Assembly: GCF_018873765.1 (NCBI RefSeq)
Contig: NC_057922.1
Coordinates: forward strand, 14,893,563-14,957,562
DNA from: Telopea speciosissima
Taxonomy: Eukaryota > Streptophyta > Magnoliopsida > Proteales > Proteaceae
Length of the DNA stretch: 64,000 bases
Direction of reading: 5' to 3'
Below the pieces are notes generated by a model. It searched no databases, was not told where the DNA came from, and saw nothing but the letters and a program-made list of their open reading frames with translations. Both the position numbers and the translations under genes were made by a program. This document shows, in pieces, positions 7,839 to 58,655 of the stretch; within the stretch, counting starts at the first letter, position 1; each line of letters starts with the position of its first letter.

Positions 7839-8070
7839 ATTTAATACGCTACTATTATGTGTTCTTTGTTGCCCTTTCACATCCTCAGGTCCTCAATACA
7901 TAATAGTACGATTAGGTAGACCCCCCTGTTTGTGTGTTTCAACTTTTTTAAACAATATTCTTATGGGATCACTTTTCTCGTACGTCTTTGATCCACGCGT
8001 CAATTCCACCAAAGTCGAAGATTTCTTTTTTTTTTTTTAAATTTGAAATTTTATCATGGATGACTGTTGC

Positions 8071-35167: not shown

Positions 35168-38100
35168 CTAAGAGAAAAACGTGTAATCTTTAGCACTAAT
35201 AATAATTGTCCGCGCTCCTCCAATTGGTGCAAGAACCATTATCAAACTTCCAAATATTATCGCAAACTGAAACCAAAAGACGAAATGATTAATTGATAGC
35301 GCAATTGAATTTTGATGATAACAAATATAAGTGTTTGGTAGTAACCAAACATGTAGACATCAATGGAATATAAATGTCTTAGTGGGACTAAACATGTTAC
35401 GAATTGACTATTGGTAAAATTTAAGAGATATATTGTGGCAAATGACTAGTAAAGTTCCTGAAGCTCCTAAATAATAGGGGGTTTGATAAATATGGTCTAC
35501 AATAAAGGATATGAAGTTTAAAGATTGATGAATATAAGTTGTCTATTTTACATACCCAACTTGCAGTCCAGTGGAAGCTCCATCTTTTTGGTTTTTTTAG
35601 GATAAGCCACATTATACAAGGGAGCTGCATCAAGAACCAATGGATCAATAAAAACTATAAGATATATAAGAAACATTAAAAAAAAATAAGGAGAAAGTTC
35701 TTTGTCCAGGAGTGTGGCCTATGCCAACACTCCCATGAGTCTATCTCTCTCTTCCCCATTTGAAAAGACACATTTGTTCCCTTGTTTTGAGGAGAAGAGA
35801 GATAGACACATGACACTACTGGTATAGGCCACACTCCCGGACAAAAAACTACTTCCCAGATAATTATTAGATGTGACAATATTTGATCACTCACAAAAAA
35901 TGATGTGGATGCAAACACAAGTCCCCCAAAGAACCCTAATAAACCTCCGAAGAAAGGGATGCAAACTGCTACAAGAGCTGTCAAAACTGAAAAGACAAAA
36001 AAACCAGATTAAGATAGAAAAAACGAGACCAAGGGAATGAGTTCTCAAAACCAGATTGATTTATTGTGTAATTGGTTAAGTTTGGTATCCATTGAAACCC
36101 AAAGGGCTTAGCTTGGTTAGGCTGGCTAAGCCATATATTTCACCAATGCATGCCCTTGTATACCATTTATTAATATAATTCATAATTAATGAGAAGAAGT
36201 ATACTTACTGACATAAATACTACGTCCAAATAAGCGGAGAGTGTACCCCGGTTTGCATTTTAGATCTTTTACCAAGTAGGTTTCAATTTGGTCGAACACT
36301 GGCATTGCAAAAACCTAGAATTGAAAAACAGTTAACCCAATTAGATATTCAATTCAATTCAGATTATTTGGATCATCATCTGAAATTGATCATTCTGTTT
36401 AGAGTTTAATTAAAATAAGTGTATACACATATATATATATATAAAAGTCACCTGATAGCTTCCGACAACATGGAGAAATACCATGAGATTAGCAATTGCA
36501 ATAAGCCATTTGGGTCTGCTTAGTGTCACAAGGACATCATCATCTACATGAACACCGAAAGCCCAGTAGCCAGAGATAGAAACTGAGAAGTAGCAAAATG
36601 CCAAAACAACATATGCTACAATTACTCCTTTCCACATAGGTTTACTTGATGGCTTCTCAGGAGTGGAAGGGATTGTGGCTTGAATCTCTAGAGCAACACT
36701 ATGACCTGCAAAGGCAAAAGCCATCGTCCCCATGCCATTGAATACGCCGAATATGGTTCCTGCTGTGGTGGTTGCACGAAGGCCATATCGTGCTTCTCTA
36801 TGATGCTCTGAACCTCTTATTGTAGATGCAATGAAAGCTATAGCAGAGTAACTATATATATATATATATATACACAATCATACAAAGAAAGAATTATAAC
36901 ATTTAGATCGGATTGTGTTATCCAAAACAAAGAAAATTAAATGCAAAATCCAATGAAACACAAAACATCTAGCTAGTACTGATCAAAGAAGCTAGCTAAA
37001 TACGTACCAAACAGACATTACAGCTGCAAGTAATGAAATTCCCCTTAGTGAGTTAAAATTGGGAGTTTGAGCAAGCAACACCTCCACGCCGCCAAAGATT
37101 ATTATGAAATAGGTTTTTCTAATTGACCCTACTGTTGGAACAAGCAGCTCAAAGAACTTCTTTATCGAGTTTCCACCTGTGACCATGTACACAATATTTG
37201 TAGCTACTTGAACAACTAATTGTTGAGGCATTACAATCCAATACCCCCTCTTTTTCCCAAAAACATATTCCCCTAGCTCTGGGTAACGATCAAAACGTAC
37301 TCCCGGCACACATTCGTGCATTTCAACCAGTTGCCACAATGAGTATAAAGTTACGAGCCATGAAACAACCAAGATAGCAATACCAGGAATCCTGAGTCAC
37401 ATGACATGAAAAAAATCCAAAATTGTTGTGAAGAAGAAGAAGAGGCCGGCCACAAAAAAAGAGATTAAACTAACAATTCTAAGCAGTTGAAAAATTAATT
37501 ATCACGGTGTTTTTTCGATGACAAGGAGAAGTATAAATACCATCCAAGCTGGGTCATTGCATAAGGCAATCCAAGTACACCTGCACCTACCACAGCTGTT
37601 ATATTGTGGAACGCGGAGTACCACCATTTTGCTTTCCGAGACGCTGTTATTGGCAACCAATTCTCCAAGTTCCTCTGTTGCTCGCTTGTATTTGAATCTT
37701 GCTGTTTAATTATATTTACATCCAATTAGAGATGCTAATTTAGAAACAATTCATGGATACATTTCATAGAAACGTGAAATCAATCAAGATAGGTGATAAT
37801 TAAAGTCGTCGTTAGAAGACTGACATTGAAATAATTAAGGAGGGGTATCATTTCAAACTTTTGCCTAAACAATTATATGCATGGTCTTCAACCCATTTTA
37901 ATGGAGTCCATGAATGAATGTAGGACAAATATTTTAAGGGAAAAATATCTCTGTCCGGGAGTGTGGCCCACTCCCATGAGTCTATCTCTCTCTTTCTCAT
38001 GTGAAAAGATATCTCTGCCCCCTTATTTTAAGGAGGAGAGAGATAGACACATGAGAGTGTTAGTGTAGGCCACACTCCCGGACAGAAAACTGCTTCCCAT

Positions 38101-38573
38101 AATTTCATTATCGATAGCACCTTTCGGTGAGAGATATGAACAAGACAGGAGAGAGAGAGAGAGCAAGAGAGAGAAAAGCGTAAACTTTAATTTGTCAAAA
38201 CGTTAAGTATCTTAGGTGTCATTTACCCTTTTTATGGGCTTTAAACAAAAAAAAAAAAAAAACAATTAAAAGAGCTATCGCTACTGATACTGATACTGAT
38301 ACTGATACAGATTGGCTTGTATCAAGTTATGCTCTTGATCCATCACCAATTCCGAGCCAAGATCGGCCAGGAATTGATATTGAGTAGTTGTTCGGGAGAA
38401 GAGTCATACAAATAACTCAAACATCAAGCCTTCACTTTCTTCCAATTTCTGAAGATACAAACCCCCACAAGGAACTATTTACACTAAAAAAACCAGAAGA
38501 AGAAATTAAAACATGGGAAATCAAACGGGAGAAGAATACTTACATTATCTCCGGTGTCTGTTGAGCTGCACAT
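35168..38573 (-). CDS. LHT: LHT-type amino-acid/proton symporter, gene A
   Basis: Eight coding exons on the minus strand, 5' to 3': 38544-38573, 37541-37701, 37008-37391, 36452-36851, 36209-36314, 35895-35986, 35556-35624 and 35168-35266. They join in frame to 446 codons plus stop. LHT proteins (AAAP family) import neutral and acidic amino acids with protons at the plasma membrane. Visible family landmarks: [101 protein letters not shown] and the C-terminal APIGG. About ten membrane segments are expected. It differs from genes B and C by an intron (36852-37007) splitting their long third exon. It is the most diverged member of the array and has a shorter first exon (10 codons). Introns 1 and 6 each hold a MITE copy. 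Which LHT paralogue it matches best cannot be told here. Confidence 0.92.
35690..35857. mobile_element. Foldback MITE family 1, copy 1 (LHT-A intron)
   Basis: Inverted ends around GTCCAGGAGTGTGGCC at left and GGCCACACTCCCGGAC at right, with an inner AGTCTATCTCTCTC against GAGAGATAGACAC. It lies wholly within the intron between LHT-A exons at 35556-35624 and 35895-35986, which is absent as such from the B and C introns. Confidence 0.8.
37938..38098. mobile_element. Foldback MITE family 1, copy 2 (LHT-A first intron)
   Basis: Starts GGGAAAAATATCTCTGTCCGGG and ends CCCGGACAGAAAACTGCTTCCC. Same inner TCTATCTCTCTC arms as copy 1. It lies in the first intron of LHT-A (37702-38543). Terminal GGGAA/TTCCC bases are shared with copy 3. 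Confidence 0.8.
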
Positions 38574-39287
38574 TTTTGCCGTGTCTGTAATCCTTCGCCC
38601 AGTGAAGTGAGAAGTGGAAAGAGACAGTGACAGAGTGCTCTCTGTGGCCTAAATAAAGCTAGCAATTGAACGATTAAGGATCGAAGCATCTAGAGATCCT
38701 AATAATTTGGGGGTTGGGTTCTTGAATTAGTCATAGAGAGTTGCTTAATTAGAGTGTTAGAGTGACAGTTAAACTGGGTCCTTGAGTAAATTAAGGAACT
38801 CTATCCGAATAATTTGGATTACCAGTAACGTGTTACTGGTCCGTGATGTGTTTGTGTTTATGTTTAACACAGAGAGAGAGAGAGAGACACAAAGACACAC
38901 ATAAAGGAATGGTGCAGCGGTCAAAGCAAACGTTGTGTCTGTTACATGTCTGTAGATAGGCTTTCATTCTGGTAATATATCATTTATTATGGATTGGATT
39001 AGTTTATCTAGTTGGGATTTTAATTAATTCTCTTATCTCTTGGACATATGCTGTATTTCCGAGATAAAAGATGACCAATGACTATCTCTCAGGGTAAGGC
39101 GGTTATTGCGTGTCTAGTCGTGTCTTGGCAGCATGATCCTGTCGGGCAGCTCGGTAGTAGAGGATCTAAATTGTTTTCTCTCTCTCCATCTTGAATTTGT
39201 TGAGTAGGTTGACTTCCTCTAATAGATCCCAATTCCTCCTATCCTCTCCTATTTTTTCTCTTTATCTGATAAATAAGAAGAGGGACG
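38574..39287. other. Upstream region of LHT-A
   Basis: Promoter side of the minus-strand gene. It contains a GA microsatellite near 38871-38888, and a segment near 39090-39175 (GGTAAGGCGGTTATTGCGTG ... CGGTAGTAGAGGATCTA) that recurs at about 55315-55395. No gene seen. Confidence 0.45.
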
Positions 39288-39412: not shown

Positions 39413-39692
39413 ACCTAATATAAAGAACAACATATTTGTGTTTTTAATATCCCTATTTCTTGGGTATTAATACTTAAGTTAAAACTAATCGTATTAGTCA
39501 TATTATAATTGTATTATCCATCCTTAATTTGGCCCCTTTGTCCCCCACAGAGAACTAGATGAGATGCTATTTCACCTTCTTAGAACTGTGTCTTGTACTT
39601 TGAAGTTTAAATAGCAGAGCTAGTTGCATTAACAAAGGATGGTCAAACACTCCAGTCAATGATTTTTGGCAAAAACAAAAACAAAAAGTTGT

Positions 39693-41000
39693 ACCCAAAT
39701 GCACGAGGCTCCTTCGGGGTCTGGGGAAGGTCATAATGTACACAATCTTACACCTACTTTTGCAGAGAGATTGTTTCCAGATTCGAATCCATGATTACTT
39801 GGTCACAATGGAATGACCTTACCATTGCACAGAAACCCCACACAATGAAATTACAGTATTGCCATGATTCACTATTTGAAATGAATTTCATGAGAGTTTG
39901 GGAGCATGGTTCTTAATCTTGGGATCACTTAAGGCCTATAGATTGGTCAAAAGTGGTCCAAAATTAGGGTTTGTTGAATTTGTCTTGGAATCAGTCAAAA
40001 AAAAAAACCTTTTAAAAATCAAGTTAAAATTAATAATAAGTGTTACATTTAGTCTAAAGTTAGAATAGACGCATATTGTAAACCACAGCATGAATATAAA
40101 AAGAAAAAAAAAATTCAAAAAGAAAAAGGTCAAAAACCTTAAAAATTCAACCCTTGCATATGTATCAGATCGGGTGATCCTTCTGATCCAGTGAGCGCTC
40201 CAGTGATTCGTTCAAGGATCGTTTGTATCTCGGGTTCAATCATGGCCAATACTGGTCAACCAATCCAATCTCAAGATTACAAACCATGGGCAGGAGAGCT
40301 AAAGAATTGAATTCTAATATAAATTCTAAAGGAAAAAAAATCGGATTTTGATGAAACCAAACTCGAGTATGTTTGCCCGAAGGTTCAATTGGGTTGAATA
40401 ATTACAAGAAATTATCATATGGTGATAGGGTGAATTTAATTGAAGGAATTACACATTAGAAACCCCTTCTATGGGCTAACCATAGAACCTTATAAATTAA
40501 GTAGATTTAATTGAATCTATATGGTTAATTTAATAAAGGTTTTGACCCATCTAATTCAATTTAATTAAGTAGGGAAGGTTGGTTCAAATGGAAATCAATA
40601 GGTTCAATTGGGTTGATGTGTCTAATGGTTTTTTTTTTCCGGTTCAAGTAGTTCATAGGTTTGCATCATGCATGGGTAACAGAAGGATAAGGCAAAGGAT
40701 TAAATGGTCAATTCAAGGAACAAAGGGTACCCTAGCTATTTTTTTTTTTTTTTTTTTTTTTTTGTGGGTAGAACGGTAGCTAAGTTTTTGCATGAAAGAG
40801 AGGCAAGAAATTGCAAGGTAAGGACAAAGTGGGGTTTTCACCTCTCTTTTTGCATTCTAAGAACAAAGAAGAAGAATACGTTTCCTTCTCTCTTGTTCAT
40901 TCAAAGGTTTGAGAAAAGAGAGGAGAGAGAGAGAGAGAGAGAGGAAGAAGAGGAGAAGAAGAGCTTAGAAGGGAGGGAAATCGATGGGCTGTGAGAGGGT
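39693..41000. repeat. Left part of tandem segmental duplication, unit 1
   Basis: From ACCCAAATGCACGAGGCTCC (39693) onward this sequence runs parallel to 48994-50260: GGTCATAATGTACACA, TTCACTATTTGAAATGAATT, GAATAGACGCATATTG and AAACCCCTTCTATGGGCTAACC occur in both in the same order. A poly(T) run (40739-40763) and a GA microsatellite (40921-40942) are extra here. Spurious frames only. Confidence 0.8.
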
Positions 41001-41484
41001 TCTTGAAGGGTTGGGGGGGGGGGGGATTCATCCTTGTGGAGTGGAGAAGAAGAGAAAAAAGGGCGGATTTGAGAAGAGAGCAAACCTGGATTTCAAAGCC
41101 TGGAGCAAGGATTGAAGCTGGAACTTGAGGATTCAAGCTAAAGAGGAGTGGATTTCTTCAAAAACATAGGTCTTCTTCCCAATCTCTTCTCTACATTAAC
41201 ACAAAAAAAAAAAAAAAAACTCTGTTTTGGAGGCCTTCTTTGGGTTTTAAATCTGAAAAATTGAAAAGGGAAGAAGATGGAAAAGAAATAGAAATTGAAA
41301 GAGAAATAGGAGGGAAAATATTGCACAAGGAAGAGAAGACGAGAGGGAGTTAGGGATAATCTAGGAGAAAAAAACAAGGAGAAGGAGAGAGGACGAGAGA
41401 GAGAATTAAAATAGAAAGTATTAGTGAAGGAGAGGAAGAGTGGGTACTGGCCGGCTGGGTATAACGAAACTAGGCCTGTCAATT

Positions 41485-41633
41485 TTGCTGCTATACTTGT
41501 AGTAGTCAAGGAAATGGAATAATTCACTTTCATTTTGGGTTTATAAATACCCTCTAAGGTTTTTGTATTTTCTAAAATACCCTTTAAAATTCCATTTCCT
41601 TGGCTGCCAGCTTTGTAACAGCAAAATTTCATC
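41485..41633. repeat. MITE family 2, copy 1
   Basis: Ends are inverted: AATTTTGCTGCTATACTTGTAG at left and CTTTGTAACAGCAAAATTTCAT at right, around a core that includes GGAATAATTCACTTTCATTTTG and TTCTAAAATACCCTTTAAAAT. Further copies are at 42367-42562, 50257-50365 (reverse) and, truncated, 54333-54374. Confidence 0.7.
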
Positions 41634-41639
41634 TCGAAA

Positions 41640-42080
41640 CTAGGGCTGTAAATGGATTAGATTTGGCTCGGATACGGATCGGATGTGATTGGATCCGAAT
41701 ATTCCCTGACTGAATATGGATACCTCTAAACAAATTCAGATGGATTCGAATACGGATCGAATTTGGATTTTCGACCATCCGTTTAAATCTTTGCCTTGTA
41801 TAACTGGGACCTTCTTCCCCCTAGCAGATATAATTCATTCTCAATCCATATCTGTTAGATCATGATTCTCTTTTTCCTCATATTCTAGAACCTGTTGAAT
41901 CTTAAAAAACCTTCAAGGTCATTATTTATTTAATTTTTTATTATTAAGTATTTGGGTTTTTTTCTAGACTGATTTTTATCGGAGCATTCGGATTTTTTCT
42001 TGGATTTCTCTAAACGAATACAGATGTCCCTAAACGGATGTGGATGCGGATCGAATTCAGATTTTTGGTTATCAATTTAT
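41640..42080. repeat. hAT-like MITE, related to 32415-32790
   Basis: Begins TAGGGCTGTAAATGGATTAG and ends TATCAATTTATAACCCTA, imperfect terminal inverted repeats. The flanks inside are rich in CGGAT and ATCCG words, as in the hAT element at 8079-9526. Interior is AT-rich and non-coding. The right end matches the reverse complement of 32415-32480. Confidence 0.6.
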
Positions 42081-42366
42081 AACCCTAAACAAAACCCCCC
42101 TCTCTCTCTCTCTCGTCTTGTGTGATGTGCGTGGCCAATGTGGTTTTGCTCTGTTTTTTTTTTTTTTCCAAAAGAGAAAAAGATCTTTATTTGGTGGTGT
42201 TTCCTACGCCACCAAGTTTGGGCCAATGGGTGAGCACGCCTGGGTATCTATCCAAAGGGTAGATGCATCATCTCACGGTGCCTTATGAGAGAGTGTAGGA
42301 AACACCAACAAGTAGAGATCTTTTCCCCTTTTCAAAAATAGAAAAAATGAATTAGAGAATTAAGGA

Positions 42367-42562
42367 AAAAATTTTGCTGCTACACTTGTTCCTGCTACAA
42401 AGCTAGCAACCAATGAAATGGAATAATTCACTTCCCCTTTGGATTCATAAATATCCTCCTAGGTTTTAGTATTTTCTAAAATACCCTTTAAGATCCTGTT
42501 TCCATGGCTGCCAGCCTTGTAGCAGGAACATTCCTACTACAAGTATAACAGAAAAATTTCAT
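42367..42562. repeat. MITE family 2, copy 2
   Basis: AAATTTTGCTGCTACACTTG at left, CAAGTATAACAGAAAAATTTCAT at right. Core with GGAATAATTCACTTCCCCTTT matches copy 1. The nearby (TC)n and poly(T) tracts at 42100-42165 are simple repeats. Confidence 0.7.
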
Positions 42563-42599
42563 CGGAGAATGTAGGAGGAAGAAGATAGACAATAGATGT

Positions 42600-43613
42600 G
42601 ATCTATAAAAAAAATCTATGGGTTTGGTACTTTGGTTCCCTTTAATTCCATGGGCTTCTATATGGGCCCCGGTTTAATACCAGATGGACCTAAATTAGTG
42701 AATCAAAGAGTACCTTTTGGGCCTAAAAACTGAAAGTTTTAAATGGATTAATTGGGAGCTTAATCTTATGTATGATTTTAATTCTGTTTTAGGTAAAAAT
42801 ATATGTGGCATACTCCTACTTAATAGGTTCGAATTTATTGTGATGTTTCTATCTTAAGTATGTGAGCTTAAATGGCATGTTAGTATAAGTTGAATTTAAT
42901 TTAAGGAATTGTTACCCAAAAAATAAAAAATTTTTAAGGAATACTACAATTCTTGAGTGTCGCATGTATACATTATTTGAAAGGAGAATATAACTTCAAT
43001 TACCTTTTTAGAGCATAATATAACTACAAGTGACTTAATTGAAAGGTTTCATGTCCCATAAAAGATGTTGTACCAACAAATAACAACCCATGATCCGTAT
43101 CTATAAGAGTTAACACCAAATGGATTGTAAAGACCAAAATCTAATGTATTGTTGTGTAGAACTACACCGCTATAGGTGTTCCTCCATATCGTCAAGAAAA
43201 ATGAAATAAAAGGATAAACAAAGACTTGATCTTAAAGTTAGAAAGATTATTCAAACAATGATCTCAAAAAAGAAAAAAGAAAAAAAACATTGGAAACCCA
43301 TCTTGATACATTTGGGCAAAATAAAAATGCTTCCAAGCCTTTTTTATTTCAAGAATTTTGATAGAACCAAAGGTACAAGACTAGCTTTGCATTGAAAAAT
43401 AAGTACCTAACTTTTCGATATCTAAATTAAATTAGTGACACCTCTAAACTCATTGACTTTAATCTAACTGATACAATCGACAAAAATTTTGATTGTCAGA
43501 GTAACTCATTAATTTCATGGTCTTTTGATCAGTATCTTAACCAAAATCCAGAGATAAATCGATATTTAACAAAAATAAAATAAAAAATTGTCAACATATA
43601 CTGTAATTACAAC
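42600..43613. repeat. Duplicated 3' flank of LHT-B
   Basis: 42600-42722 matches about 50395-50515 (TCTATGGGTTTGG, TTTAATACCAGATGGA), and 43129-43613 matches 51302-51791 almost continuously (AAATGGATTGTAAAGACC, GATCTTAAAGTTAGAAAGATT-like). The part between, 42723-43128, is replaced by unrelated sequence in the other unit. No gene. Confidence 0.7.
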
Positions 43614-45772
43614 CTAAGAGAAAAACTTGTAATCTTTAGCAGTAATAATAATTTGTCGCAATCCTCCAATCGGCGCAAGAACCATTATCAAACTTCCAAA
43701 TATTATCGAGATCTGAAACCAAAAGATGAAATGATTAACTGATAGCACAATTGAATTTTGTCTTGAGTTGTGATGATTCCAATTGAATTAATTAACCATA
43801 TATATGTTTCTTTTTGGCTCAAGAAGCGATCATGCCCACATAACATATCTGATTGTTTTGCATGGATTATTCATCAGACAAATATAGGGCTTGATATATG
43901 GCGCGCAATGGAGTGTTTTAAGGTTAATGAATATAAGTTATCTATTTTCATACCCAACTTGCTGTCCAGTGGAAGCTCCATGATTTTGGATTTTCCACGA
44001 TAAGCCACATTATACTAGGGAACTGCATCAAGAAACCATGGATTAAGAAACTATAAGAAATATAAGGAATATTTAAAAAATATTAAAAGTGGCAATGATC
44101 ACTCACAACATATGATATGGGTGCGTACACAAGTCCCCCAAAAAACCCTAATAACCCTCCAAAGAAAGGGATGCAAATCCCAACAAAACCTGTTAAAACT
44201 GAAAAATGCAAGACAAAACAACTTATTATATGTAGTGTGGTTTAAGGAAACATCAATATATTCTGGCTAGCTTCACCAAAACTATTGAAATTTATGATAG
44301 GGATATGCTATAATTTGTTCAAGAAAACATGTTTTGCTTGATCATGATCATGTAATTGGATAGCTTTGGTAGCAGTTGAAACCCCAAAGGCTAAGTTAGG
44401 CTGGCTCATTAATTTTACCTATGCCCTTGTAAACCATTTATTAAATTACTTGCAAAGCATATATATATATATATAATTCATGATGAGAATTGTACACTTA
44501 CTAACATAAACACTACGTCCAATTAGGCGGAGAGTGTGCCCTGGAGTGCATTCTAAATTGTTTACCAAGTAGGATTCAATCAGGTCGAACACCGGCATTG
44601 CGAAAACCTGGAAAAACAGTTAACCCAAGAACATTCAATTCAGATTTCATCATCTGAAATTCATTCTGATTTAGAGTTTAAAATAGTGTCTATATATATG
44701 TCACCTGATAGCTTCCAACAACATGTAAAAACACCATGAGATTAGCAATTGCAATAAGCCATTTGGGGCTGTTGAGTGTCACTAGGACATCATCATCTAC
44801 ACTAACACCAAAAGCCCAGTAGCCAGTGATAGAAACTGTGAAGTAACAAAATGCGACAACAATATATGCTACATATACTCCTTTCCACATAGGTTTACTT
44901 GATGGCCTCTCAGGAGTGGAAGGGATTGTGGCTTGAATCTCTAGAACAACACTATGACCTGCAAAGGCAAAAGCCATCGTCCCCATGCCATTGAATACAT
45001 CAAAAATGGTTCCTGCCATGGTGGTCGCACGAAAGCCATAGTGTACATCTCTCTGATGTTGTGAACCTCTTATTGCAGATGCAATGAAAGATATAGAACA
45101 GTAACTAACGGACATTATAGCTGCAAGTAACGACACTCCTCTTAGTGAGTTAAAATTGGGAGTCTGAGAAAGCAGCAATTGTAGAGTGCCAAACATTGTT
45201 ATGAAATAGGTCTTTCTAATTGAGGCCACAGTTGGGGCAATGAGCTGAAAGAACTTTTGTAGCGAGTTTCCACCGGTGACCATGTACACAATGTTTGAAG
45301 CTACTTGAACAAGTAATTGTTGAGGCATTATAATCCAATACCCCCTCTTTTTGCCAAAAGCATGATCCCCCAGCTCAGGGTAACGATCGAAACGGTGTCC
45401 CGGCACACATTCGTGCAATTCAACCAGTTGCCACAATGTGTATAAAGTGACGACCCATGAAAGTCCCAAAATAGCAATTCCAGGAGTCCTGTAAGACATC
45501 ATGAGATAAACCTGAAAATTTTATTGAGAAGAAGAAGAAGAGGCTGAAACAGATTATTATGGTATTTTTTCGGGTGATAAGGAGTAGTATAAACATACAT
45601 ACCATCCAAGTTGGGACATTGCGAAAGGCAATCCAAGTGCACCTGCACCCACCATAGCTGTTACATTGTGGAACGTGGAGTACCACCATTTTGCTTTCCT
45701 AGATGCTGTTACTGGCAGCCAATTCTCCAAGTTCCTCTCTCGCTTGCTTCTATTTGAAGCTTGCTGTGTTAT

Positions 45773-45814
<42 letters not shown>

Positions 45815-46196
45815 TCCAACTCAGTAAGCCATATTCCAATTAATTGAAACACTGAACTTTCAGAATCCAATCTAAAGGGGGTTCGATTAAATGTTTTGAA
45901 TACCATGTGGAACCCCCTCTTTTTTTCTTCTTCTTCTTCTTTTGATGGGTAATCAATAAAACAACTAAAAGAACAGTTGGTGCCTTTGATGGGCATTCAA
46001 AAATCAAGCCTTTTAACTTTCTCTCAAAATGTCAGGCAGAGAGAGAGGAAGAGAACTACAAGAATAGTTACGAGATCATGGAGGAGAAGATCACACTTGT
46101 GATTCTACCCATCATGCACAAAGGAAGAATACTCACAGTAGCTTCTGCTGCTGCTGCTTGGTTCTCTGATGAGCTGCTCATGTTTGCAATTGTCAT
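43614..46196 (-). CDS. LHT: LHT-type amino-acid/proton symporter, gene B
   Basis: Seven coding exons on the minus strand, 5' to 3': 46137-46196, 45603-45763, 44705-45488, 44502-44607, 44107-44198, 43954-44022 and 43614-43712. All are GT-AG and join in frame to 456 codons plus stop, close to the 446 of Arabidopsis LHT1. The 784-base third exon encodes from [11 protein letters not shown] through VVGSYQ in one piece, where gene A has an intron. Family landmarks include [67 protein letters not shown] and [16 protein letters not shown]. The N-terminus carries an alanine run (NQAAAAEAT). A GA microsatellite lies in intron 1 (45777-45812). Nearest relative by eye is gene C in the tandem duplicate. 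Expected role: proton-coupled amino-acid import at the plasma membrane. Confidence 0.94.
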
Positions 46197-46852
46197 GTCT
46201 CTCTCTAATTCTCCTTTCCCTGTGAAGTGAGAGTAGAAGTGAAAGTGAAAGAGAGTATTTTAGTTACACTAAAAGTCAAACTGGATCCTAATTCTCCGCC
46301 CTTTGAAGTGAGAGTGAAAAGAGTATTTTAGTTACTAGAGTAATAGTTAAACTGTTTCCGGCCTAGAGAAAATTAAGGAAAAATTATGGTAACCTAATTC
46401 ACACATCAGTGAGACAGAGAGAGAAAAGCGTCGATTTCTTCCTTTCAACTACTCCTCCTATATTTTCTTACCCAAAAAAAAACTAATCCTCCTATATTTC
46501 GTGTTATTATCTTTGCTTAATTGACACATCAGTGATAATCTGATTAATCTGAGGCGTCAACTCTTGCCCGATTCAATCCTGACTTTGGGTTTGAAATCTG
46601 GAACCTTAACCTACCTTTAGGGTTGAAAAAGCCCAAGCCTTGTTTGGCCTTTGGGTCAAGGTTCACAGGGCCAAACTTGCACCCCTAATCTTATATTTGT
46701 CTTCTTACTTTGTATCATGTAATTTTCTATCTATTTCAGGGGAGATTAACAATTTTGCCGACTCCTTGACTTGGAGGGCACGGTCAGTGACATGAATGAC
46801 AGCTTGACTCAATTCCGATCCATGGTTGCAAGAGTTTTGTTATGCTCCTTCC
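46197..46852. other. Upstream region of LHT-B
   Basis: 46197-46430 resembles the upstream region of LHT-C (53937-54190), sharing AACTGGATCCTAATTCTCCGCC and GAGTGAAAAGAGTATTTTAG. A near-repeat of the GTGAGAGT-AAA-GAGTATTTTAG segment occurs twice within it. Beyond 46430 I see nothing recognisable. Confidence 0.5.
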
Positions 46853-48312
46853 ATGAGATTTCCATGTTAATCATGGGAGTTTTATCTTCTAAGGTTCCCT
46901 CACCCATACGGTTGTGAGATTCTCTTTGCGGATGTTCGACACGTGTTAGAGAGAAATCCAACGGTTGTGAAGTGAAATACACTTCACGATGGTGGTTCCC
47001 AAACAACGAGTGACTCTCTCTCTCTCTCTCTCCTCTCTCGACTCTTTCCTCAAAACCACTCTCTTCTCTCTCCTCTCTCCACTCTATCCTCAAAACCACT
47101 CTCTTCTCTCTCCTCTCTCTCCACGTTTGCAGTTCTCAATGAAACTGCAACTCTCACGTCTCCTCTATGAAGAATCTGTGAACCACGACCCTAGCTGCCG
47201 TTGTTATACACATCAATCTGCCGCAACACTCTTGAATCCTGGTATTTTGGTCCTCGCACACACCAAGAACAGAATAGGATAGGCGAATGGATTTGGCTTG
47301 GTCAGGGTCGAGGGAGGCGGCGAAACCATGGTAGGCGGTGGCGTAGGTGTAGAGAAGGGAATAATTCAAATGTAAGTGGGATGGGATTGTAAATATTGCA
47401 ACTGTGCATTCAACTCTGCGTTCTGAGCATTTTCTTTTTTTTGCTTTGAGACCGACTTGAAAAAGAAGATCAAAAAGATCTTCAAAATTATCTCCATCTT
47501 TTCTTTTGATTGGCTTAAAATGATTTAATCTTTGTTTTCAGATCAGAAAGGTTGAATCTCCAGGCCCAAAGATCCTGGATAACATACATCATCATGTATT
47601 TACTATTCTGCTCCTTATCTCTAAAACGTTAGATGTATGGAATCTCAAGATTCTAGCTTGTTGCACTCTTCATCATCCCTGATTCTGAGTTCCTCTCTCT
47701 CTCTCTCTCTCTCATTATCTTAATACATAGAGAGAAAGCACTACAAAGTAGGAAGTAGAAACTTGTATGATACATTCAATGAACTATCCCATCCCACTTA
47801 CACTTTGGCCTCTGCCATCGCCGCTGCCGTGTCCCTTCCACATACTGTGGCCATATCCATCCCCAACCTTCCCCTTCTGCAGACGGTGGCTTCTTAGGCA
47901 GGGAATGAGTTCGCCGGCCCTCTGGTTTGGCTGTCGCAAGATGCGGCAGTGGAGTTGTTGAAACCCTAAAATGAGTTTTCCATTTTTCGTTTCTGGTTTT
48001 GCGATTTGGAGAAGAAGGAAAGGGAATATTCTCTCTCTAATTTCTTATTTATTTTTGACTACTTTATTATAAAGATGTATAAAAATGGTTGAGGATAGAG
48101 TGGAAAGAGGAGAGAGGAGACAGTGATTTTGACGAAAGAGTGGAGAGAGGAGAGAGAGAGAATCACTCGTTGTTTGGGAACCACCATGTGAAGTATATTT
48201 CACCTCACAACTGTTGGATTTTTTTTCTAACACGTGTCGAACCTCCATAAGGAGAACCTCACAACCGTATGATTGAGGGAACCTTAAAAGGAAAAAAATC
48301 CATTAATCATGG
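46853..48312. mobile_element. Mutator-like foldback element carrying a gene fragment (Pack-MULE candidate)
   Basis: Inverted arms of about 230 bases (46853-47095 and 48085-48312) share AAGGTTCCCTCA, ATACGGTTGTGAG, TTCGACACGTGTTAGA and GTGGTTCCCAAACAACGAGTGA, followed by a CTCTCT-rich stretch. Long terminal inverted repeats with no transposase and a host-derived interior are typical of non-autonomous Mutator-like elements. The interior carries a subtilase fragment (47238-47372). A further GC-rich stretch (about 47800-47960) looks gene-derived, but I cannot assign it. A 9-base target duplication was not found, so the exact ends are approximate. Confidence 0.7.
47238..47372 (-). pseudogene. Captured subtilase (SBT1-type) propeptide fragment
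   Basis: The minus strand reads NYSLLYTYATAYHGFAASLD and continues PDQAKSIRLSYSVLGVCED. This is the end of the inhibitor-I9 propeptide of plant subtilisin-like proteases, whose usual form is like LYTY-AFHGFAA-L-P-EA--L--S-SVLGVYED. The match stops there, and neither the following HTTR segment nor the catalytic domain is present. About 45 codons survive inside the foldback element, so this is a captured exon piece and not a protease gene. Confidence 0.7.
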
Positions 48313-48800
48313 CACTTAGTACAAAGATATCCTATCTCTGAAAAACAGGGGAAGGCCCGCCTTCTGGGTGGGATACATGTCACGCCTTGAGGAGAGCGAT
48401 GTGGAGAGTAACGCACTTTCCACGTACGCATGCATATCCTCCGCATGCACGCTTCTTGAATTGAGTTCCCAAGTCAAATCTAAAACCTCCTTCCAGTTAA
48501 TACGCTCTAACTCTTAACGTTTTTTAGATGTCTATTTGAATCGACTACTTCGAGGGTGGTATAGAGAGTGAATAATTTTTATATTTATATTCAATTCTGA
48601 CTTCTTCTCAGCTCACTGGAGTCGAACTCCCAAGATTTCTTAATTAGCTTCTTCTTGAAGATATATCACAGCCCATTTCTTTCCTGATTTGTCTTTGATT
48701 TTTGTTAATTATTATTTTTAATTTATGTGATTTTAATTCTGAAATACAAACTTTCAATTCTGTTGGCAGGTATATATAGCTAGGGAGGGAGATCTGGACC
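48313..48800 (+). repeat. Duplicated PHT1 upstream region
   Basis: Parallel to about 55440-55987: TATCCTATCTCTGAAAA, ATGTCACGCCTTGAGGA, ACTTTCCACGTACG and CATTTCTTTCCTG occur in the same order. It directly precedes the PHT1 stub. It contains GCATATCC (48432-48439), which fits the GNATATNC P1BS site bound by PHR1-type phosphate-starvation regulators; the corresponding spot upstream of the longer copy does not fit it. Confidence 0.75.
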
Positions 48801-48993
48801 ATGGCCAAAGAAGACCTACATGTTTTGAGTGCTTTAGACACAGCTAATTAATTAAGACACGTACAATGGTAATCAAATCACAGCAATATATAGTTGTTGC
48901 AGGGATATGACGGGCTTCTTCTTCTTCACTGATATATGCTTATCATCTCTTCTTCATTTCCTTAGTTACAAATTAAGCTTCTTGGTCGTATAT
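48801..48993 (+). pseudogene. PHT1 phosphate transporter, 5' stub
   Basis: Begins [15 protein letters not shown], identical in sense to the start of the PHT1 gene at 55988. It then continues with small insertions through the FFTDAY-like region (cttcactgatatatgctt) and ends near CTTCTTGGTCGTAT. At that point it switches without a gap into the intergenic sequence found at 39693. It is a truncated copy of about 63 codons' worth created at a duplication junction, with several frame changes since. Confidence 0.88.
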
Positions 48994-50260
48994 ACCCAAT
49001 GCATGAGACTCTTGTCACCTCGGGTTTGGGAGGGTCATAATGTACACAGCCTTACCCTTACTTCTGCAGAGAAGTTGTTAATTTCCACACTCAAAATCAT
49101 GACCACTTGGTCACAATTGAACAACCTTATCGAGTTCGAGTCTCCTGGCTCATACCTTCCCCCCCTCCCTCCCCCCCCTCCAAAAAAGAGAGTAAGATAT
49201 ATATAAAAAGCTCCCAATTCCCAAAAAAAAATAAAAAAATAAAAAAAATTGAACAACCTTATCATTGCACCAAAGCCCACAACAGTGAAATTACAGTATT
49301 ACCATAGATTCACTATTTGAAATGAATTCCAAGAAGGTGGGAGCATGGTTCGTAATCTTGGGATCAATTAAGCCCTATACCTATCCAATATTGATCCAGA
49401 TTGGTCAAAAGTGGTCAAAAATTAAGGTTCATTGAATTTGTCTTGGAATCAGTCAGAAAAATAATAAAAACTTAAAAAACTTTTAAAAAAATTAGGTTAA
49501 AATTAATATTAAGTGTTATACATTTAGTCTAAACTCTAAAGTTAAAATAGACGCATATTGTACAGAAAAAAATTCAAAAAGAAAGAGGTAAAATATCCAG
49601 CCGGTACTGGTCAACCAATCCAATCTCCATATTACAAACCATGTGTAGGAGAGCTAAAGATTTGAATTCTAATATAAATTCAAAAGAAGAAAAATTCGGA
49701 TTTTGATGGAACCAGAGTCGAGTATATCAGTTGGGTTGAATAATTATAAGAAATTATCATATGGTCATAAGGTGAATTTAATTGAAGGAATTACACATTA
49801 TGAATATACTTTGAAACCCCTTCTATGGGCTAACCATAGAACCTTATGAATTGAGTTGATTTAATTGAATTTATATGGTTAATTTAATTATGGTTTTGAC
49901 TTTTGACCCATCTAATTTAATTTAATTGAGTTGGGTAGGTTGGTTCAAATGAAAATCAATAGGTTCAATTGGGTTTATGTGTCTAATTTTTATTTATTTT
50001 TTGTTAAGTTTAGTTCAAGTAGTTCAAACTTCATAGGGTTGCATGGGTAAAAGGGGGATAAGGCAAAGGATTAAATGGTCAATTCAAGGAAGAAAGGATA
50101 CCCTAGTTAAGTTTTTGTATGAGAGCTTATTGGCTTAAAAGAGAGGCAAAAAATTGCAAGGTAAGGGCAAAGTTGGATTTTCACCTCTCTTTTTGCATTC
50201 TAAGAACAAACTAGGAAGAATATGTATCCTTCTCTCTTGTTCATTCAAAGGAAATGGGAT
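48994..50260. repeat. Left part of tandem segmental duplication, unit 2
   Basis: Parallel to 39693-41000. A C-rich tract (49158-49182) and an A-rich run (49220-49248) distinguish it. No gene. The matching stretch begins exactly where the PHT1 stub ends. Confidence 0.8.
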
Positions 50261-51791
50261 CTTAAAAGGTGTTTTAGAAAATACAAAAACCTAGGAGGAT
50301 ATTTATGAATCCAAAAGGGAAGTGAACATTCCTGCTACAAGTAAAGCAGCAAAATTTCGTCCATGAATGAAAGAGGAAGAAGATAGACAATAGATGTGGT
50401 CTATAAAAATAAATCTATGGGTTTGGGTTCACTTTAATTTCATGGGTGTCTATATGGGCCCTGGTTTAATACCAGATGGATCTAAATTAGTGAATCAAGA
50501 CTCAAGAGTACCTTTTGGCACATGGAGTCTCAAGCTATAGTATGCAGAAATCTATTGTTATCGCTACTCTTCCAAAGTAAAGGACTCATTAAGGACTCAA
50601 TCTGATGGGCAATATTAGAAGGAATCCTAAAGACCCCTAACCAGTAGATATATGAAGCTTACATGATTGAGTGAACTAGCTCCACCTACCCCCATAAGAT
50701 AGGAGTTTAATTAATGTTTTAATGTACAACCAATATAACTAGAAGTAGGAATTTTAGATGGAGGACCTTTTGGTCTCGAAATTATGAGGGGTTGGGAATT
50801 TGTGACCCAACATTGACAGAGGGATTGAAAGGTCACAAGGGTTTTTAAGAACTTTCTTTATTGGTGTTTTTGCTTTATTTCTTCATGAGTCATGAAAATA
50901 ATTTCAAATTCTTTTTTTTTTTTTCTTCTAAATAAATCTCTAATATTCTAAAGTAATTTTTAGAAAGAAAATTCATACAAGTGATTTTTTTTTTTTATAT
51001 TAAATGAATATTTAACATAAACTATAACAACAATAAATGATTCTTACGATAAGGAGTGAAAATTTTTATCTTCGAAAAAGGAAAAAAAAAAAAACTCTGA
51101 TCAAAATTGCTCCATGGGCTCTTAAAAATCTCTATAGAAGTAATATATATCAAACATTCGCAAAGTGACAGTATTCTAATAGTTAGCTAATGCACTATGA
51201 CTATTCGGACCTGGCTCTCCTTTTGCCGTGGAGAGAGCTGGAGGATCCAGCCCAGCAAAAACGAGGGGGGGGGGGGGGTTGGTCATTTCATATGGGGGGC
51301 CCAAATGGATTGTAAAGACCAAAATCTAATGTATTGTTGTGTAGAACTACACCGCCATAGGTGTTTCTCCATATCGTCAAGAAAAATGAAATAAAAGGAT
51401 AAACAAACACTTGATCTTCAAGTTAGAAAGATTATTCAAACAATGATCTGAAAAAAGAAAAAAAAAAAATTGAAAACCCATCTTGATACATTTGGACAAA
51501 ATAAAAAATGCTTCCAAGCCCTTTTTATTTCTAGAATTTTGATAGAATCAAAGGTACAAGACTAGCTTTGCATTGAAAAATAAGTACCTAACATTTCGAT
51601 ATCTAAATTAAATTAGTGACACCTCTAGACTCATTGACTTTAATCTAACTGATACAATCGACAAAATTTTTGATTGTCAGAGTAACATCATTTCATGGTC
51701 TTTTGATCAGTATCTTAACCAAAATCCAGAGATAAATTGATATTTAACAAAAAATTTGCAACATATAAAACCATTTTTCTGTAATTACAAC
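50261..51791. other. Flank of LHT-C with inserted repeats
   Basis: 50257-50365 is a reverse-oriented MITE family 2 copy (GAATCCAAAAGGGAAGTGAA, AGTAAAGCAGCAAAATTTCG). 50395-50515 matches 42600-42722. 50516-51200 is unique. 51224-51302 is part of the palindromic repeat of 12101-12633 and includes a 14-G run (51265-51278). 51302-51791 matches 43129-43613. No gene. Confidence 0.6.
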
Positions 51792-53936
51792 CTAAGAGAA
51801 AAACGTGTAATCTTTAGCAGTAATAATAATTTGTCGCATTCCTCCAATCGGCGCAAGAACCATTACCAAACTTCCGAATATTATCGCGAACTGAAAGCAA
51901 AAGATGAAATGATTAGCTGATAGCTCAAGTAGCGATCATGACCACATAACATATCTGATTCTTTTGCATGGATTATTCATCGGGCAGATATAGGGGTTGA
52001 TATATGACAATGAAGTTTTAAGGTTAATGAATATAAGTTATGTATTCTACATACCCAACTTGCTATCCAGTGGAAGCTCCATATTTTTGGCTTTTTCAAG
52101 ATAAGCCATATTAGACTAGGGAACTGCATCAAGAACCCATGGATCAAGAAACTATAATACATGGTAAGTAACATTTTAAAAATATTAAATGTGGCAATGA
52201 TATGATCACTCACAACAAATGACATGGATGCGAACACAAGTCCCCCAAAGAACCCTAATAACCCTCCAAAGAAAGGGATGCAAATCCCAACAAAACCTGT
52301 TAAAACTGAAAAGGCTATATATGTTATAAGGCTGGCTTATTTTACCTATGCCCTTGTAAACCATTTATTAAATTACTTACTTACAAATTAAGCAGATATA
52401 ATTCATGATGAGAGAAGTATACTTACTAACATAAACACTGCGTCCAATTAGGCGGAGAGTGAACCCTGGATTGCAATTTAAATTGTTTACCAAGTAGGAT
52501 TCAATCAGGTCGAACACTGGCATTGCAAAAACCTGGAAAAACAGTTAACCCAAGAACATTCAATTCAGAATTCAGATTTCATCATCTGAAATTCATTCTG
52601 ATTTAGAGTTTAAAATAGTGTCTATATATATATATATGCCATGCACCTGATAGCTTCCAACAACATGTAAAAACACCATGAGATTAGCAGCTGCAATAAG
52701 CCATTTGGGGTTGCTGAGTGTCACAAGGATATCATCATCTACACCAATACCAAAAGCCCAGTAGCCAGTGATAGCAACTGTGAAGTAACAAAATGCGACA
52801 ATCATATATGCTACATATACTCCTTTCCACATAGGTTTACTTGATGGTCTCTCAGGAGTGGAAGGGATGGTGGCCTGGATCTCTAGAAGAACACTATGAC
52901 CTGCAAAGGAAAAAGCTATTGCCCCCATGCCATTGAATACTTCGAATATGGTTCCTGGCAAGGTGGACGCACGAACTCCATACTCTACATTTCTATTAGG
53001 TTGTGAACCTTTAATTGCAGATGCAATGAAAGATATAGAAGAGTAACTAATGGACATTATAGCTGCAAGGGATGACATTCCAGCAAGTGAATTAAAATTG
53101 GGAGTCTGAGAAAGCAGCAATTGCAGGGTGCCAAACATTGTTATGAAATAGGTCTTTCTAATTGAGGCCACAGTTGGGGCAATGAGCTGAAAGAACTTTT
53201 GTAGCGAGTTTCCACCGGTGACCATGTACACAATGTCTGAAGCTACTTGAACAAGTAATTGTTGAGGCATTACAATCCAATACCCCCTCTTTTTCCCAAA
53301 AGCATAATCCCCTAGCTCATAGTAACGATCGAAACGTTGTCCCGGCACACATTCGTGCAATTGAACCAGTTGATATAATGTGTATAAAGTGACGAGCCAT
53401 GAAAGTCCCAAGATAGCAATTCCAGGAGTCCTGTAAGACATCATGAGATGAACCTAGATAGCTAGCTAGCTCTCAAAATTGTTGACAACAAGAAGAAGAA
53501 GAAGAAGAAGAGGGTGAAAGAGATTTTAATAAAAACAACAATTCAGTTGGGTGATAAGGAGTAGTAGTATAAACAAAGATACATACCATCCAAGTTGGGA
53601 CATTGCGAAAGGCAATCCAAGTACACCTGCACCCACCATAGCTGTTACATTGTGGAACGTGGAGTACCACCATTTTGCTTTCCTAGATGCTGTTACTGGC
53701 AGCCAATTCTCCAAGTTCCTCTCTCGCTTGCTTCTATTTGAAGCTTGCTGTGTTATAATAGAAGAGAGAGAGAGAGAGAGCAACTCAGTAAGCCACATTC
53801 CAATTAATTAATTGAAATCACAACAACTATTTGTATTTGTGAAGATATTAAAACACTGGAAATCAAACGGGAGAATACTCACAGTAGCTGCTGCTGCTTG
53901 GTTCTCTGATGAGATGCTCATGTTTGCCATAGTCAT
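51792..53936 (-). CDS. LHT: LHT-type amino-acid/proton symporter, gene C
   Basis: Seven coding exons on the minus strand, 5' to 3': 53883-53936, 53587-53747, 52647-53430, 52427-52532, 52214-52305, 52055-52123 and 51792-51890. They join in frame to 454 codons plus stop. Exon lengths are identical to gene B except in exon 1 (54 against 60 bases). Landmarks include [62 protein letters not shown] and [18 protein letters not shown] differs from B in scattered substitutions (for example [12 protein letters not shown] against [12 protein letters not shown]), and more often in the loop with [20 protein letters not shown]. The gene looks intact. Expected to be a plasma-membrane proton-coupled amino-acid importer; a shift in substrate or expression from B is possible but not visible here. 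Confidence 0.94.
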
Positions 53937-55430
53937 GTCTCTCTCTAATTCTCTTCTCGCTGTGGAGTGCATTGAAGCGAAGTGAGAGTGGAAGTGAAAG
54001 AGAGTAGTTTAGTAGTTACACCAAAACATTCAAACTGGATCCTAATTCTCCGCCCTTTGAAGTCAGAGTGAAAAGAGTATTTTAGTTACTCACAGAGTAA
54101 CAGTCAAACTGGTTCCTACAGAAAATTAAGGAAAAATTATGATAACCTTAATATTCAGTGACACATCACTGAGAGAGTGAGAGAGAATCGTCGATTTTCA
54201 GTTCACTATTCACGGCACCGATAACGGTTATCACGAGTTGAAGATATTATTTTCCATTTTCCATTTTTATTTTTATAATCTCTAATAGTAATAATTAATT
54301 ACTATTAGTAAAAGCAACTTCTATGAATATGACGAAATTTTGCTGTTACAAGGCTGGCAGCCAAGGAAAGAATCCCATGGCATAGGACGGGGCAGTTCTG
54401 GGATGGGATTCTGAATGGTACCAGTTCTAAAATACCGGCAGATTAACAGGTTAGCTAGTACCCGTTCGAAAGATATATTTAATGATTTTTGTTCAAGTTT
54501 TACAAGTGTATGTATTTGAATGGTATTTTTATCCAAAAGAGGTTTCAGCTGATGAACCTCTAGTTATATTTTATAAACTTGTTTAGTGATGACATTAAAA
54601 CTATGTTCGGACTTTGTTTATTTGGTCATCATTAATTTTTAGTTGTCATTTTTTTTTTTTTTTTTTGGTCAATAAAATTCATATATTCTTTTTTTATATA
54701 TGAAAAGATAAACCCTATACTAAGCGAAAAGAAAATCACCAACACTGTACGAAACGCATAAGCGAATTCTATCAATTCAGGCTCTACGTGCTAAGTTGTG
54801 TGCTATGAAGATTGAAGACCCTATTATAAGATTGTTTAAGGACAAAATTTTTCTCCACCCATAAAGGACAATTCACTCACCATTCTTTTGCTCAGATATC
54901 GAGCTGCAATTTTAGTCGTCAACAGACCATTTTTTGCATAAGGGCAAAATAGGAATTAAATATGTTCAATAATCGCAAGAGGCATCTGAGAAATAATACT
55001 AACAATGTGAGTTGGGAAAACATAATTGATGAGAGGGAGATTCGAAGATCTCCTAGTCCAAACTCAGAAAAAGGAGTAAGACAGGTAGAGAGTCCCTCGG
55101 TCTGTTAGAGATAGATCTCACTCCACTTTGGAAGCCAAGGATCATTTCAGATATTGATCAAAGTCCCAAACCCAACCTTGCAACAAACAAGTCTCCTAAG
55201 GTAAGGAATCATTGGAGAAAAACCATTGCAAAACCAAGAACATTTTTTTCTTTTCATGATTAATATAGCTCGTCAGTTTATAGCCCAAGCGTGCCTGAGC
55301 GCTTTGCCCGAGTAAGGGTAAGGCAGTCATTATGCATCCCACCGTATTTGGGCAACACGGTCCTATCGGACAGTTCGGCAGTAGAGGATCTAGATCGGAA
55401 TAAACGTGAATAGCCTGGGAGGATCTTGGA
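53937..55430. other. Upstream region of LHT-C and intergenic DNA
   Basis: 53937-54190 matches the LHT-B upstream region. 54333-54374 is a truncated MITE family 2 copy (GAAATTTTGCTGTTACAAGG). 55265-55395 has the TAAGGGTAAGGCAGTCATTATG and CAGTTCGGCAGTAGAGGATCTA words also seen near 39090-39175. No gene. Confidence 0.5.
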
Positions 55431-55949
55431 TGGTACTTGTATAAGAACATGATCCTATCTCTGAAAAGTAGGGGGACAGCTCGCTTTCTAAGGGGGGCAC
55501 ATGTCACACCTTGAGGACAGCAATGTGGAGAGTAATTCACTTTCCACGTACGGATAGAGAGAGACTTTCTCCTTCCTTAAAACCAGTATACAATTTCCAT
55601 GCATCTCTCCTCCTCATGCACGTTTCTTTTAATTATCAGTCAAACCTTAAACCTCCTTCCACTTAATACTCTCTGACTTTCCTTATATGTCTATTTCAAT
55701 CTACTACTTCGGTGATGGTATAAAGACTGAATATTCCATGAATTTCCATTTTTATATATACATATTCTGACTTTTTCTTCATTTGACTCCCATTGATACT
55801 CACTGTCACTCACCAGTCACCACTCACCACCACTTTGAAGATCACAGTCCATTTCTTTCCTGGTTTGTGTTTGATTTTTTGTTTTTTGTTTTTTTTTGTG
55901 ATTTCAATTCTTAATTACAAAACTTTCAATTTTCTGTTCATGGTATACT

Positions 55950-55978
55950 GGAAGGAAGGAAGGAAGGAAGGAAGGAAG
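55950..55978. repeat. GGAA tetranucleotide microsatellite in the PHT1 leader
   Basis: Seven perfect GGAA/GAAG units end ten bases before the PHT1 start codon. The stub at 48.8 kb has GGGAGGGAGA in the same place, so the array expanded after the duplication. Confidence 0.9.
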
Positions 55979-55987
55979 ATCTGGAGC

Positions 55988-57566
55988 ATGGCCAAAGAAG
56001 ACCTACATGTTTTAAGTGCTTTAGATACAGCTAAAACACAATGGTATCAAATCACAGAAATAGTTGTTGCAGGAATGGGTTTCTTCACAGATGCTTATGA
56101 TCTCTTCCTGCATTTCTTTAGTTACAAAACTTCTTGGTCGTATTTACTATCATGTAGAAGGTTCTTCAAAACCAGGAACACTTCCTCCAAATGTTTCAGC
56201 AGCAGTTAATGGTGTTGCTTTATGTGGTACTTTAGCTGGACAACTTTTCTTTGGTTGGCTTGGTGACAAATTAGGTCGAAAAAGTGTTTATGGTGTAACA
56301 CTTTTACTCATGATTTTATGTTCAATTGCTTCTGGTCTTTCTTTTGGTAGTAAACCTTCAACTGTGATGGCAACTTTATGTTTCTTTAGATTTTGGCTTG
56401 GAGTTGGTATTGGTGGTGATTATCCACTTTCTGCAACTATAATGTCTGAGTATTCAAATAAGAAAACTCGTGGAGCTTTTATTGCTGCTGTGTTTGCAAT
56501 GCAAGGTTTTGGTATTATATATAGCTGGTGGAACAATGGCTCTTCTTGTTTCATCTATTTTTAATCATTATTATCCTTCACCACCTTATTCTAAAGATCC
56601 AATTGCTTCTACTGTTCCTCAAGCTGATTATGTTTGGAGCTGTTCCTGCTGCTTTAACATTTTATTCTCGAGTGAAGATGCCTGAGACATCTAGGTATAC
56701 TGCCCTAGTTGCCCAAAGATGCTGCAAAGGTTGCTAAAGATATGTCAAAGGTACTTGAAGTTGAAGTTGAAGTTTATCAAAATGAGATAGAAGTTGAGAA
56801 AGCAGAGACAATTATGATGGAGAAAGAAAGTAACAATTTTGGGTTGTTCTCAAAGGAATTCTTAAAAAGGCATGGATTGCATTTGTTAGGAACTACAACT
56901 ACATGGTTCTTATTGGATATTGCTTATTATAGTCAAAATTTGTTTCAAAAAGACATTTTTAGTTCAGTTGGTTGGATTCCTCCTGCAATAACTATGAATG
57001 GTATTCAAGAGCTTTTTAAGATTGCAAGAGCACAAACCCTAATTGCACTTTGTGGTACTGTGCCTGGTTATTGGTTTACCGTCTTTTTTATCGATAAAAT
57101 CGGAAGATTTTACATTCAATTGATGGGTTTCTTTTTCATGACAGTATTCATGTTTGCAATTGCAATTCCTTATCATTATTGGACTTTGAAAGGACATCAA
57201 GTTGGGTTTGTTATATTATATGCTCTTACCTTCTTTTTCGCGAATTTCGGACCAAATAGTACTACATTTGTTGTTCCAGCTGAGATTTTTCCAGCAAGAC
57301 TTAGATCAACATGTCATGGTCTCTCATCAGCTTCAGGGAAAGCTGGTGCAATTGTGGGAGCTTTTGGGTTCTTGTATGCTGCACAAAATCAAGATAAGTC
57401 AAAGACTGATGCTGGTTACCCTCCTGGGATTGGTGTGAGGAATTCCCTACTTGTGCTTGCAGTGGTAAGTGTACTAGGATTTGGGTTCACTTTCTTGGTG
57501 CCAGAATCTAAGGGGAAGTCATTGGAAGAAATGTCTAAAGAAACAGAGTCTACAGAATCTGTTTAA
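55988..57566 (+). pseudogene. PHT1: PHT1-type phosphate transporter with four frame-changing indels
   Basis: A full-length intronless PHT1 gene by homology, from [21 protein letters not shown] to a C-terminus ESVstop. PHT1 proteins import phosphate with protons at the plasma membrane (12 membrane segments). The signature [20 protein letters not shown] and the regions [39 protein letters not shown] and [13 protein letters not shown] are well conserved. Four changes relative to the family break the frame: one extra C after DAYDLF (near 56108), four extra bases at a TA run in the GFGI region (near 56520), 20 bases missing in the central-loop start near 56635, and one extra C near 56712. Net length corresponds to 531 codons in an ancestral form. 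Everything else reads clean, so inactivation is recent, or some indels (the two C-run ones) are assembly errors. Confidence 0.85.
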
Positions 57567-57724
57567 GCTCTTATACCTGTTGGGGATCCTTTAGATACAT
57601 TATTTTTTCATTAATTAGTTCTCTTAATCTTGGCCTAATCTACTTCTAAATTCTTTTCTTTTTTTTTTTTTTTTTTTTTTTTTGGACTAGCTTGTCTGTC
57701 ATGTACTTGTGAATAATAGAGTGC

Positions 57725-57730
57725 AATAAA
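57725..57730 (+). terminator. Poly(A) signal after PHT1
   Basis: AATAAA about 160 bases after the stop codon, just past a T run (57658-57682). Confidence 0.5.
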
Positions 57731-58500: not shown

Positions 58501-58505
58501 TAAAT

Positions 58506-58650
58506 GGGAAGCAGTTTTCTGTCTGCCATGTGTCTATCTCTCTCCTCCTCAAAATAAGGGGGCAAAAGTGTCTTTTCATATGAGGAAGAGAGAGATAGAC
58601 TCATGGGAGTGTTGGTGTAGGCTACACTCCCGGACCGAGATCTTTTTTCC
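58506..58650. mobile_element. Foldback MITE family 1, copy 3, with target duplication
   Basis: Starts GGGAAGCAGTTTTCTGTC and ends CTACACTCCCGGACCGAG plus a T-rich run and CC, in the opposite orientation to copies 1 and 2. Flanked by TAAAT on both sides (58501-58505 and 58651-58655), a likely 5-bp target duplication. Inner arms TCTATCTCTCTCCTCC and GAGAGAGATAGACTC. Confidence 0.8.
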
Positions 58651-58655
58651 TAAAT

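Follow-up and report, generated by a model that had tools for sequence, protein, structure and literature searches.

Positions 39692-56147 of the window, a stretch of 64,000 nucleotides from Telopea speciosissima (C7:14893563-14957562), consist of two direct, adjacent and collinear units with one novel seam between them, and thus form a tandem segmental duplication. Intergenic DNA, the region upstream of PHT1 and the beginning of that gene occur in both units, and each unit has one gene of the amino-acid transporter LHT. PHT1 is cut at the seam, where unit 1 ends in a stub. A third LHT copy, missed by the original prediction, is located to the left of the units. PHT1 codons are counted on an intact copy (533 codons) on C4. 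The units, genes and seam are:

39692..48992, plus strand: unit 1, 9,301 bases long
48993..56147, plus strand: unit 2, 7,155 bases long
48993..48995, unstranded: the seam, where the end of a SINE-like repeat meets PHT1 codon 53 with the 3 bases TAC in common
34844..38760, minus strand: LHT0, the third and older LHT copy, left of the units; ends approximate
43614..46196, minus strand: LHT1, the LHT gene of unit 1 (Aa_trans, PF01490); no stop codon in exons 2-7 over 418 compared codons, exon 1 by eye
51792..53936, minus strand: LHT2, the LHT gene of unit 2 (Aa_trans); no stop codon in exons 2-7 over 418 compared codons, exon 1 by eye
48801..48995, plus strand: PHT1 stub, codons 1-53, with an in-frame stop (TAA) after 16 codons and small insertions
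55988..57566, plus strand: PHT1 of unit 2 with its continuation beyond the unit, a pseudogene

Extent of the units and anatomy of the seam

The original prediction described two parallel units, each with an LHT gene and the PHT1 upstream region and start. This arrangement is borne out by shuffle tests and by a BLAST self-comparison of the window, in which 39.8-49.0 kb matches 49.2-56.1 kb in a collinear series. Local alignment combined with reading of the letters places the ends of the collinear chain at 39692/48993 and 48995/56147; the edges proposed earlier (39693, 48993/48994 and about 56140) were approximately right, lying 1-7 bases off. Local alignment of the 600 bases just inside each edge scores 1257 on the left (shuffle maximum 416) and 1407 on the right (shuffle maximum 373), and none of 200 shuffles reaches either value. 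Beyond the edges, similarity is no greater than in shuffled sequence (the observed score is reached by 139 of 200 shuffles on the left and by 195 of 200 on the right), and the chain neither runs past the PHT1 edge nor starts well left of 39693.

Stretches without a collinear partner include 40908-42525, 42713-43115 and 46438-48308 in unit 1, and 50511-51300 and 54198-55429 in unit 2. None of the matches that cross the unit edges is collinear; one is an 81-base match of 74% between the left flank (39091-39171) and a unit-2-specific stretch (55315-55395), another is a dispersed repeat (58524-58658) with a match in the LHT0 region, and the others look like A/T or GA runs. Positions 50250-50332 of unit 2 have a short match to 42420-42503 of unit 1 in inverted orientation, perhaps a small inverted-repeat element.

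The TAC at the seam is common to unit 1 (39692-39694) and PHT1 (56145-56147), as can be read from the letters at the junction: PHT1 has ..GGTCGTATTTAC.., the seam ..GGTCGTATATACCCAATGC.. and unit 1 ..AAAAAGTTGTACCCAAATGC.. around it. A match of TACCC at the switch had been claimed, which holds for unit 1, while PHT1 shares TAC alone. The switch from PHT1 to unit-1 sequence is indeed situated inside PHT1, but at codon 53 of 533 rather than about codon 63; the stub measures 195 bases and still breaks in codon 53 because it includes small insertions. The sequence entered at the seam, formerly taken as intergenic, does belong to unit 1 but is actually the end of a dispersed SINE-like repeat, present in both units:

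39670..39842, minus strand: dispersed SINE-like repeat with an A-rich tail, located at the left edge of unit 1; ends approximate
48993..49280, minus strand: unit-2 copy of the SINE-like repeat, lacking the tail and the last 4-5 bases and carrying an inner insert; right end approximate

A search of the genome (822,943,500 bases in 1287 contigs; the contigs named among the matches are C1 to C11) with positions 48660-49200 as query lists 40 matches, with 40 of 1962 candidates scored. These comprise the query itself, the PHT1 regions of unit 2 and C4, and 37 others, which all start at query positions 333-337, corresponding to 48992-48996 of the window. Nine of the 37 were aligned, and a GG-containing end is found just outward of TACCC in all nine, followed in most by an A- or T-rich stretch; in one copy TACTC replaces TACCC. 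Outward of TACCC, the unit-1 copy continues with GTTG and its A-rich tail, and the seam copy with PHT1 sequence. Because the seam copy lacks the end bases that are kept by the unit-1 copy and by all nine genomic copies, the break is placed within the repeat, 4-5 bases short of its end. By chance, a break would come as close as 5 bases to an element end in about 0.6% of cases; this figure is based on eight ends that we listed ourselves after the seam had been seen, and is not used as evidence. The unit-1 copy possibly has a 6-base target-site duplication (CAATGA, 39657-39662 and 39843-39848), a weak match found by eye.

The repeat may be an Au SINE, a plant tRNA-derived SINE, as its letters look Au-like. 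It resembles this family in being dispersed, in matching over about 140 bases between copies and in having a tail at one end. A text search of the literature with chosen strings gave no match; the family itself is treated in PMC5787218.

According to PMC4812662, duplications formed by microhomology or non-homologous joining share 1-10 bases at their breakpoints, while non-allelic homologous recombination needs long homology. The 3 bases shared here are within the range of about 10 bases or fewer for the former, and the long homology at both breakpoints that is usual for the latter (usually hundreds of bases) is absent. Gene-truncating tandem duplications of the former kind in plants (compare the CNV genes of Oryza in PMC4812662) likewise have direct units, a breakpoint overlap of a few bases and a gene cut at the seam. 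The present locus differs in that its seam is located 4-5 bases inside the end of a SINE-like repeat, and in being an older event that was followed by decay. With non-allelic homologous recombination it shares a dispersed repeat at one breakpoint, but only 3 bases are in common and no second SINE-like copy is seen in PHT1. Unequal crossing-over between the SINE-like copy at 39.7 kb and another one, inserted in PHT1 on a single homologue, would account for a seam at the very point where 37 of the 40 listed matches begin. However, the inserted copy should have kept its tail and end bases on the PHT1 side, both of which the seam copy lacks, and the unit-2 PHT1 carries no visible SINE-like copy; we regard this route as very improbable.

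A duplication captured by a transposon (Pack-MULE type) was rejected, as the unit edges have neither terminal inverted repeats nor a target-site duplication, with no bases duplicated there. In the inverted-repeat test, three pairs of edges behave like shuffles (26, 130 and 108 of 200 reach the observed score), whereas the control, the TIR element of unit 1, reaches a score of 249 (shuffle maximum 26).

The original prediction further held that the stub is the scar of the duplication and not an independent pseudogene. This is the simplest reading and the one we favor, although the same picture would arise if a longer tandem duplication had included the whole of PHT1, with a later deletion from codon 53 to the SINE-like end of the next unit making the stub. 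Such a sequence of events predicts the same dot plot and the same seam, and a deletion junction can equally show a 3-base overlap, but two events are needed instead of one. In a protein search of the window, unit 2 and the stub (codons 1-53) are the sole places with PHT1, and no left-flank sequence is seen beside the stub; both count against the longer duplication, with the proviso that a complete deletion would leave nothing of either. Overall, we consider a duplication trimmed by deletion unlikely, yet the most serious competitor to a stub made by the duplication itself.

Divergence, insertions and the LHT genes

The units differ at 354 of 4365 sites (8.1%) over 11 blocks aligned locally with affine gaps, and by 8.9% over the eight mostly non-coding blocks. 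Eight of the 11 blocks fall between 7 and 12%, including four intergenic blocks at 9.0-11.4%, and these divergences therefore fit one tandem duplication. Nevertheless, the blocks are heterogeneous (chi-square 50.9, 10 d.f., p 2e-7 for all 11; 31.0, 7 d.f., p 6e-5 for the eight mostly non-coding ones), which counts against a duplication of a single age unless local conversion, selection or alignment error is invoked. Low outliers are the LHT exon-2 block (45572-45796 / 53549-53780), with 3 differences in 225 sites (p 8e-6), and the 3′ block of LHT including exon 7, with 35 in 733 (p 1.5e-5); both may be conversion tracts. A high outlier is the PHT1 upstream block 48309-48431 (20 of 122 sites). 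The upstream divergence between stub and unit 2 depends on the aligner: local alignment with affine gaps, which we used, gives 11.4% for the PHT1 upstream region plus stub and 16.4% for the block before it, while a global MAFFT alignment of the upstream region, made with other gap costs, gives 25% and was set aside, as it probably forces unalignable stretches together. Substitution rates of 1.5-7 per billion years place the duplication at about 7 to 32 million years ago, which is a rough estimate.

The laying of two haplotypes in tandem is an error met in genome assemblies, and could in principle produce two such units. The 8.1% between the units is set against a heterozygosity of 0.76% given for Telopea speciosissima in PMC13080361. 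In addition, a gene cut by the seam and insertions private to each unit do not look like haplotypes; an assembly artefact is the least probable of the explanations considered.

Besides the SINE-like repeat, the units contain the following dispersed or inserted elements:

41641..42087, unstranded: dispersed repeat of about 450 bases within the unit-1-specific stretch 40908-42525
46877..48302, unstranded: dispersed TIR DNA element in unit 1, with a 10-base target-site duplication (TTAATCATGG) and arms of about 215 bases
49132..49246, plus strand: insert in unit 2, flanked by a 17-base target-site duplication; the corresponding site in unit 1 is empty

The first recurs in 39 further places at about its length among 45 matches listed (40 of 5390 candidates scored), and the TIR element has near-full relatives on C4, C3 and C2. 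The sequence inserted in unit 2 resembles a truncated SINE with an A-rich tail. A duplication followed by separate insertions in each unit, as had been proposed, is supported by this insert, while the TIR element of unit 1 has no comparable empty site because unit 2 lacks the bases adjoining it. As only the unit-2 insert has an empty site in the sister unit, it alone is directly seen to postdate the duplication.

LHT1 and LHT2 differ by a dN of 0.068 and a dS of 0.0925 over the 418 codons. The ratio of 0.74 may reflect relaxed constraint or adaptive change after duplication. LHT0, whose detected similarity to the units is confined to the gene and its near flanks, has a dS of 0.26-0.27 to both; since this exceeds the value between LHT1 and LHT2, LHT was duplicated first (giving LHT0), and later together with the PHT1 start. 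LHT2 gave no matches to solved structures up to an E value of 1.

PHT1 copies in the array and on C4

The PHT1 gene of unit 2 had been described as full. Instead, it is a pseudogene, with four frame-breaking indels (+1, +4, -20 and +1) and one in-frame loss of 9 bases relative to the C4 copy, which is located at 59346231-59347832 on the minus strand of C4 and is open over 533 codons. Among solved structures, PHT1 is best matched by 'Inorganic phosphate transporter 1-11'; assignment to a special class from this name was set aside, as one structure says nothing about class.

The C4 segment shares positions 55498-58608 with the window, spanning the promoter, PHT1 and about 1 kb of 3′ flank, and differs by 2.7% in the coding region, 4.3% in the 5′ flank and 6.7% in the 3′ flank. 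A retrocopy is ruled out by the sharing of both flanks. In 316 upstream sites aligned between the stub, unit 2 and C4, there are 33 changes unique to the stub, 3 to unit 2 and 8 to C4, and four sites differ in all three. Placing C4 as the outgroup needs a roughly tenfold difference in rate between stub and unit 2 (33 to 3, p 2e-7); by this non-coding clock, the C4 copy was made after the tandem duplication. Rooting the coding sequences of the stub, unit 2 and C4 with 13 other PHT1 copies is not decisive (five stub-derived changes, none in the ancestor of unit 2 and C4, and seven ambiguous), and gene conversion between C4 and unit 2 could imitate copying after the duplication. On balance, we lean towards a segment matching 55498-58608 having been copied as DNA to C4 after the duplication, the copy staying intact while its parent in the array died; order and direction are probably as given here. 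If true, a phosphate transporter moved to another chromosome, and the stub and the decayed parent are two corpses that date the move.

The similarity to C4 ends at 58608, inside a small dispersed repeat (58524-58658) that recurs in the LHT0 region at 35694-35815 and 37930-38053. An inverted-repeat element at 6616-7850 of the window has a relative at C4:59343035-59344350, no more than about 2 kb away from where the PHT1 segment there ends.

Proposed origin and setting

The explanation that we consider likely as a whole comprises one direct tandem duplication, a stub born at its seam, later insertions, copying to C4 and decay. Here, a break or a switch in replication would have linked two chromatids through the 3-base overlap TAC, connecting codon 53 of PHT1 on one with the SINE-like repeat's end, about 9 kb to the left, on the other. 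This event would have copied the SINE-like repeat, intergenic DNA, LHT, the PHT1 promoter and the PHT1 start, leaving the PHT1 of unit 1 a stub from birth and the whole gene in unit 2. Seam and duplication would thereby be one event, presumably caused by end joining or template switching. Each unit would then have gained its own insertions; later, the PHT1 region of unit 2 would have been copied to C4, and the gene in the array would have decayed.

A direct tandem duplication is a known and ordinary kind of genome rearrangement, and no finding at the locus is categorically new. The locus illustrates cleanly how duplication seams give rise to gene stubs; it also provides a built-in clock, later insertions that assist in ordering the events, and a gene copy that was probably relocated. 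Proteaceae are known for growing on phosphorus-poor soils. The gene involved in this member of the family is a phosphate transporter, from which no functional claim follows. Elsewhere in the window, positions 16182-16422 and 21194-21433 form a direct repeat of 97% identity, 5 kb apart.
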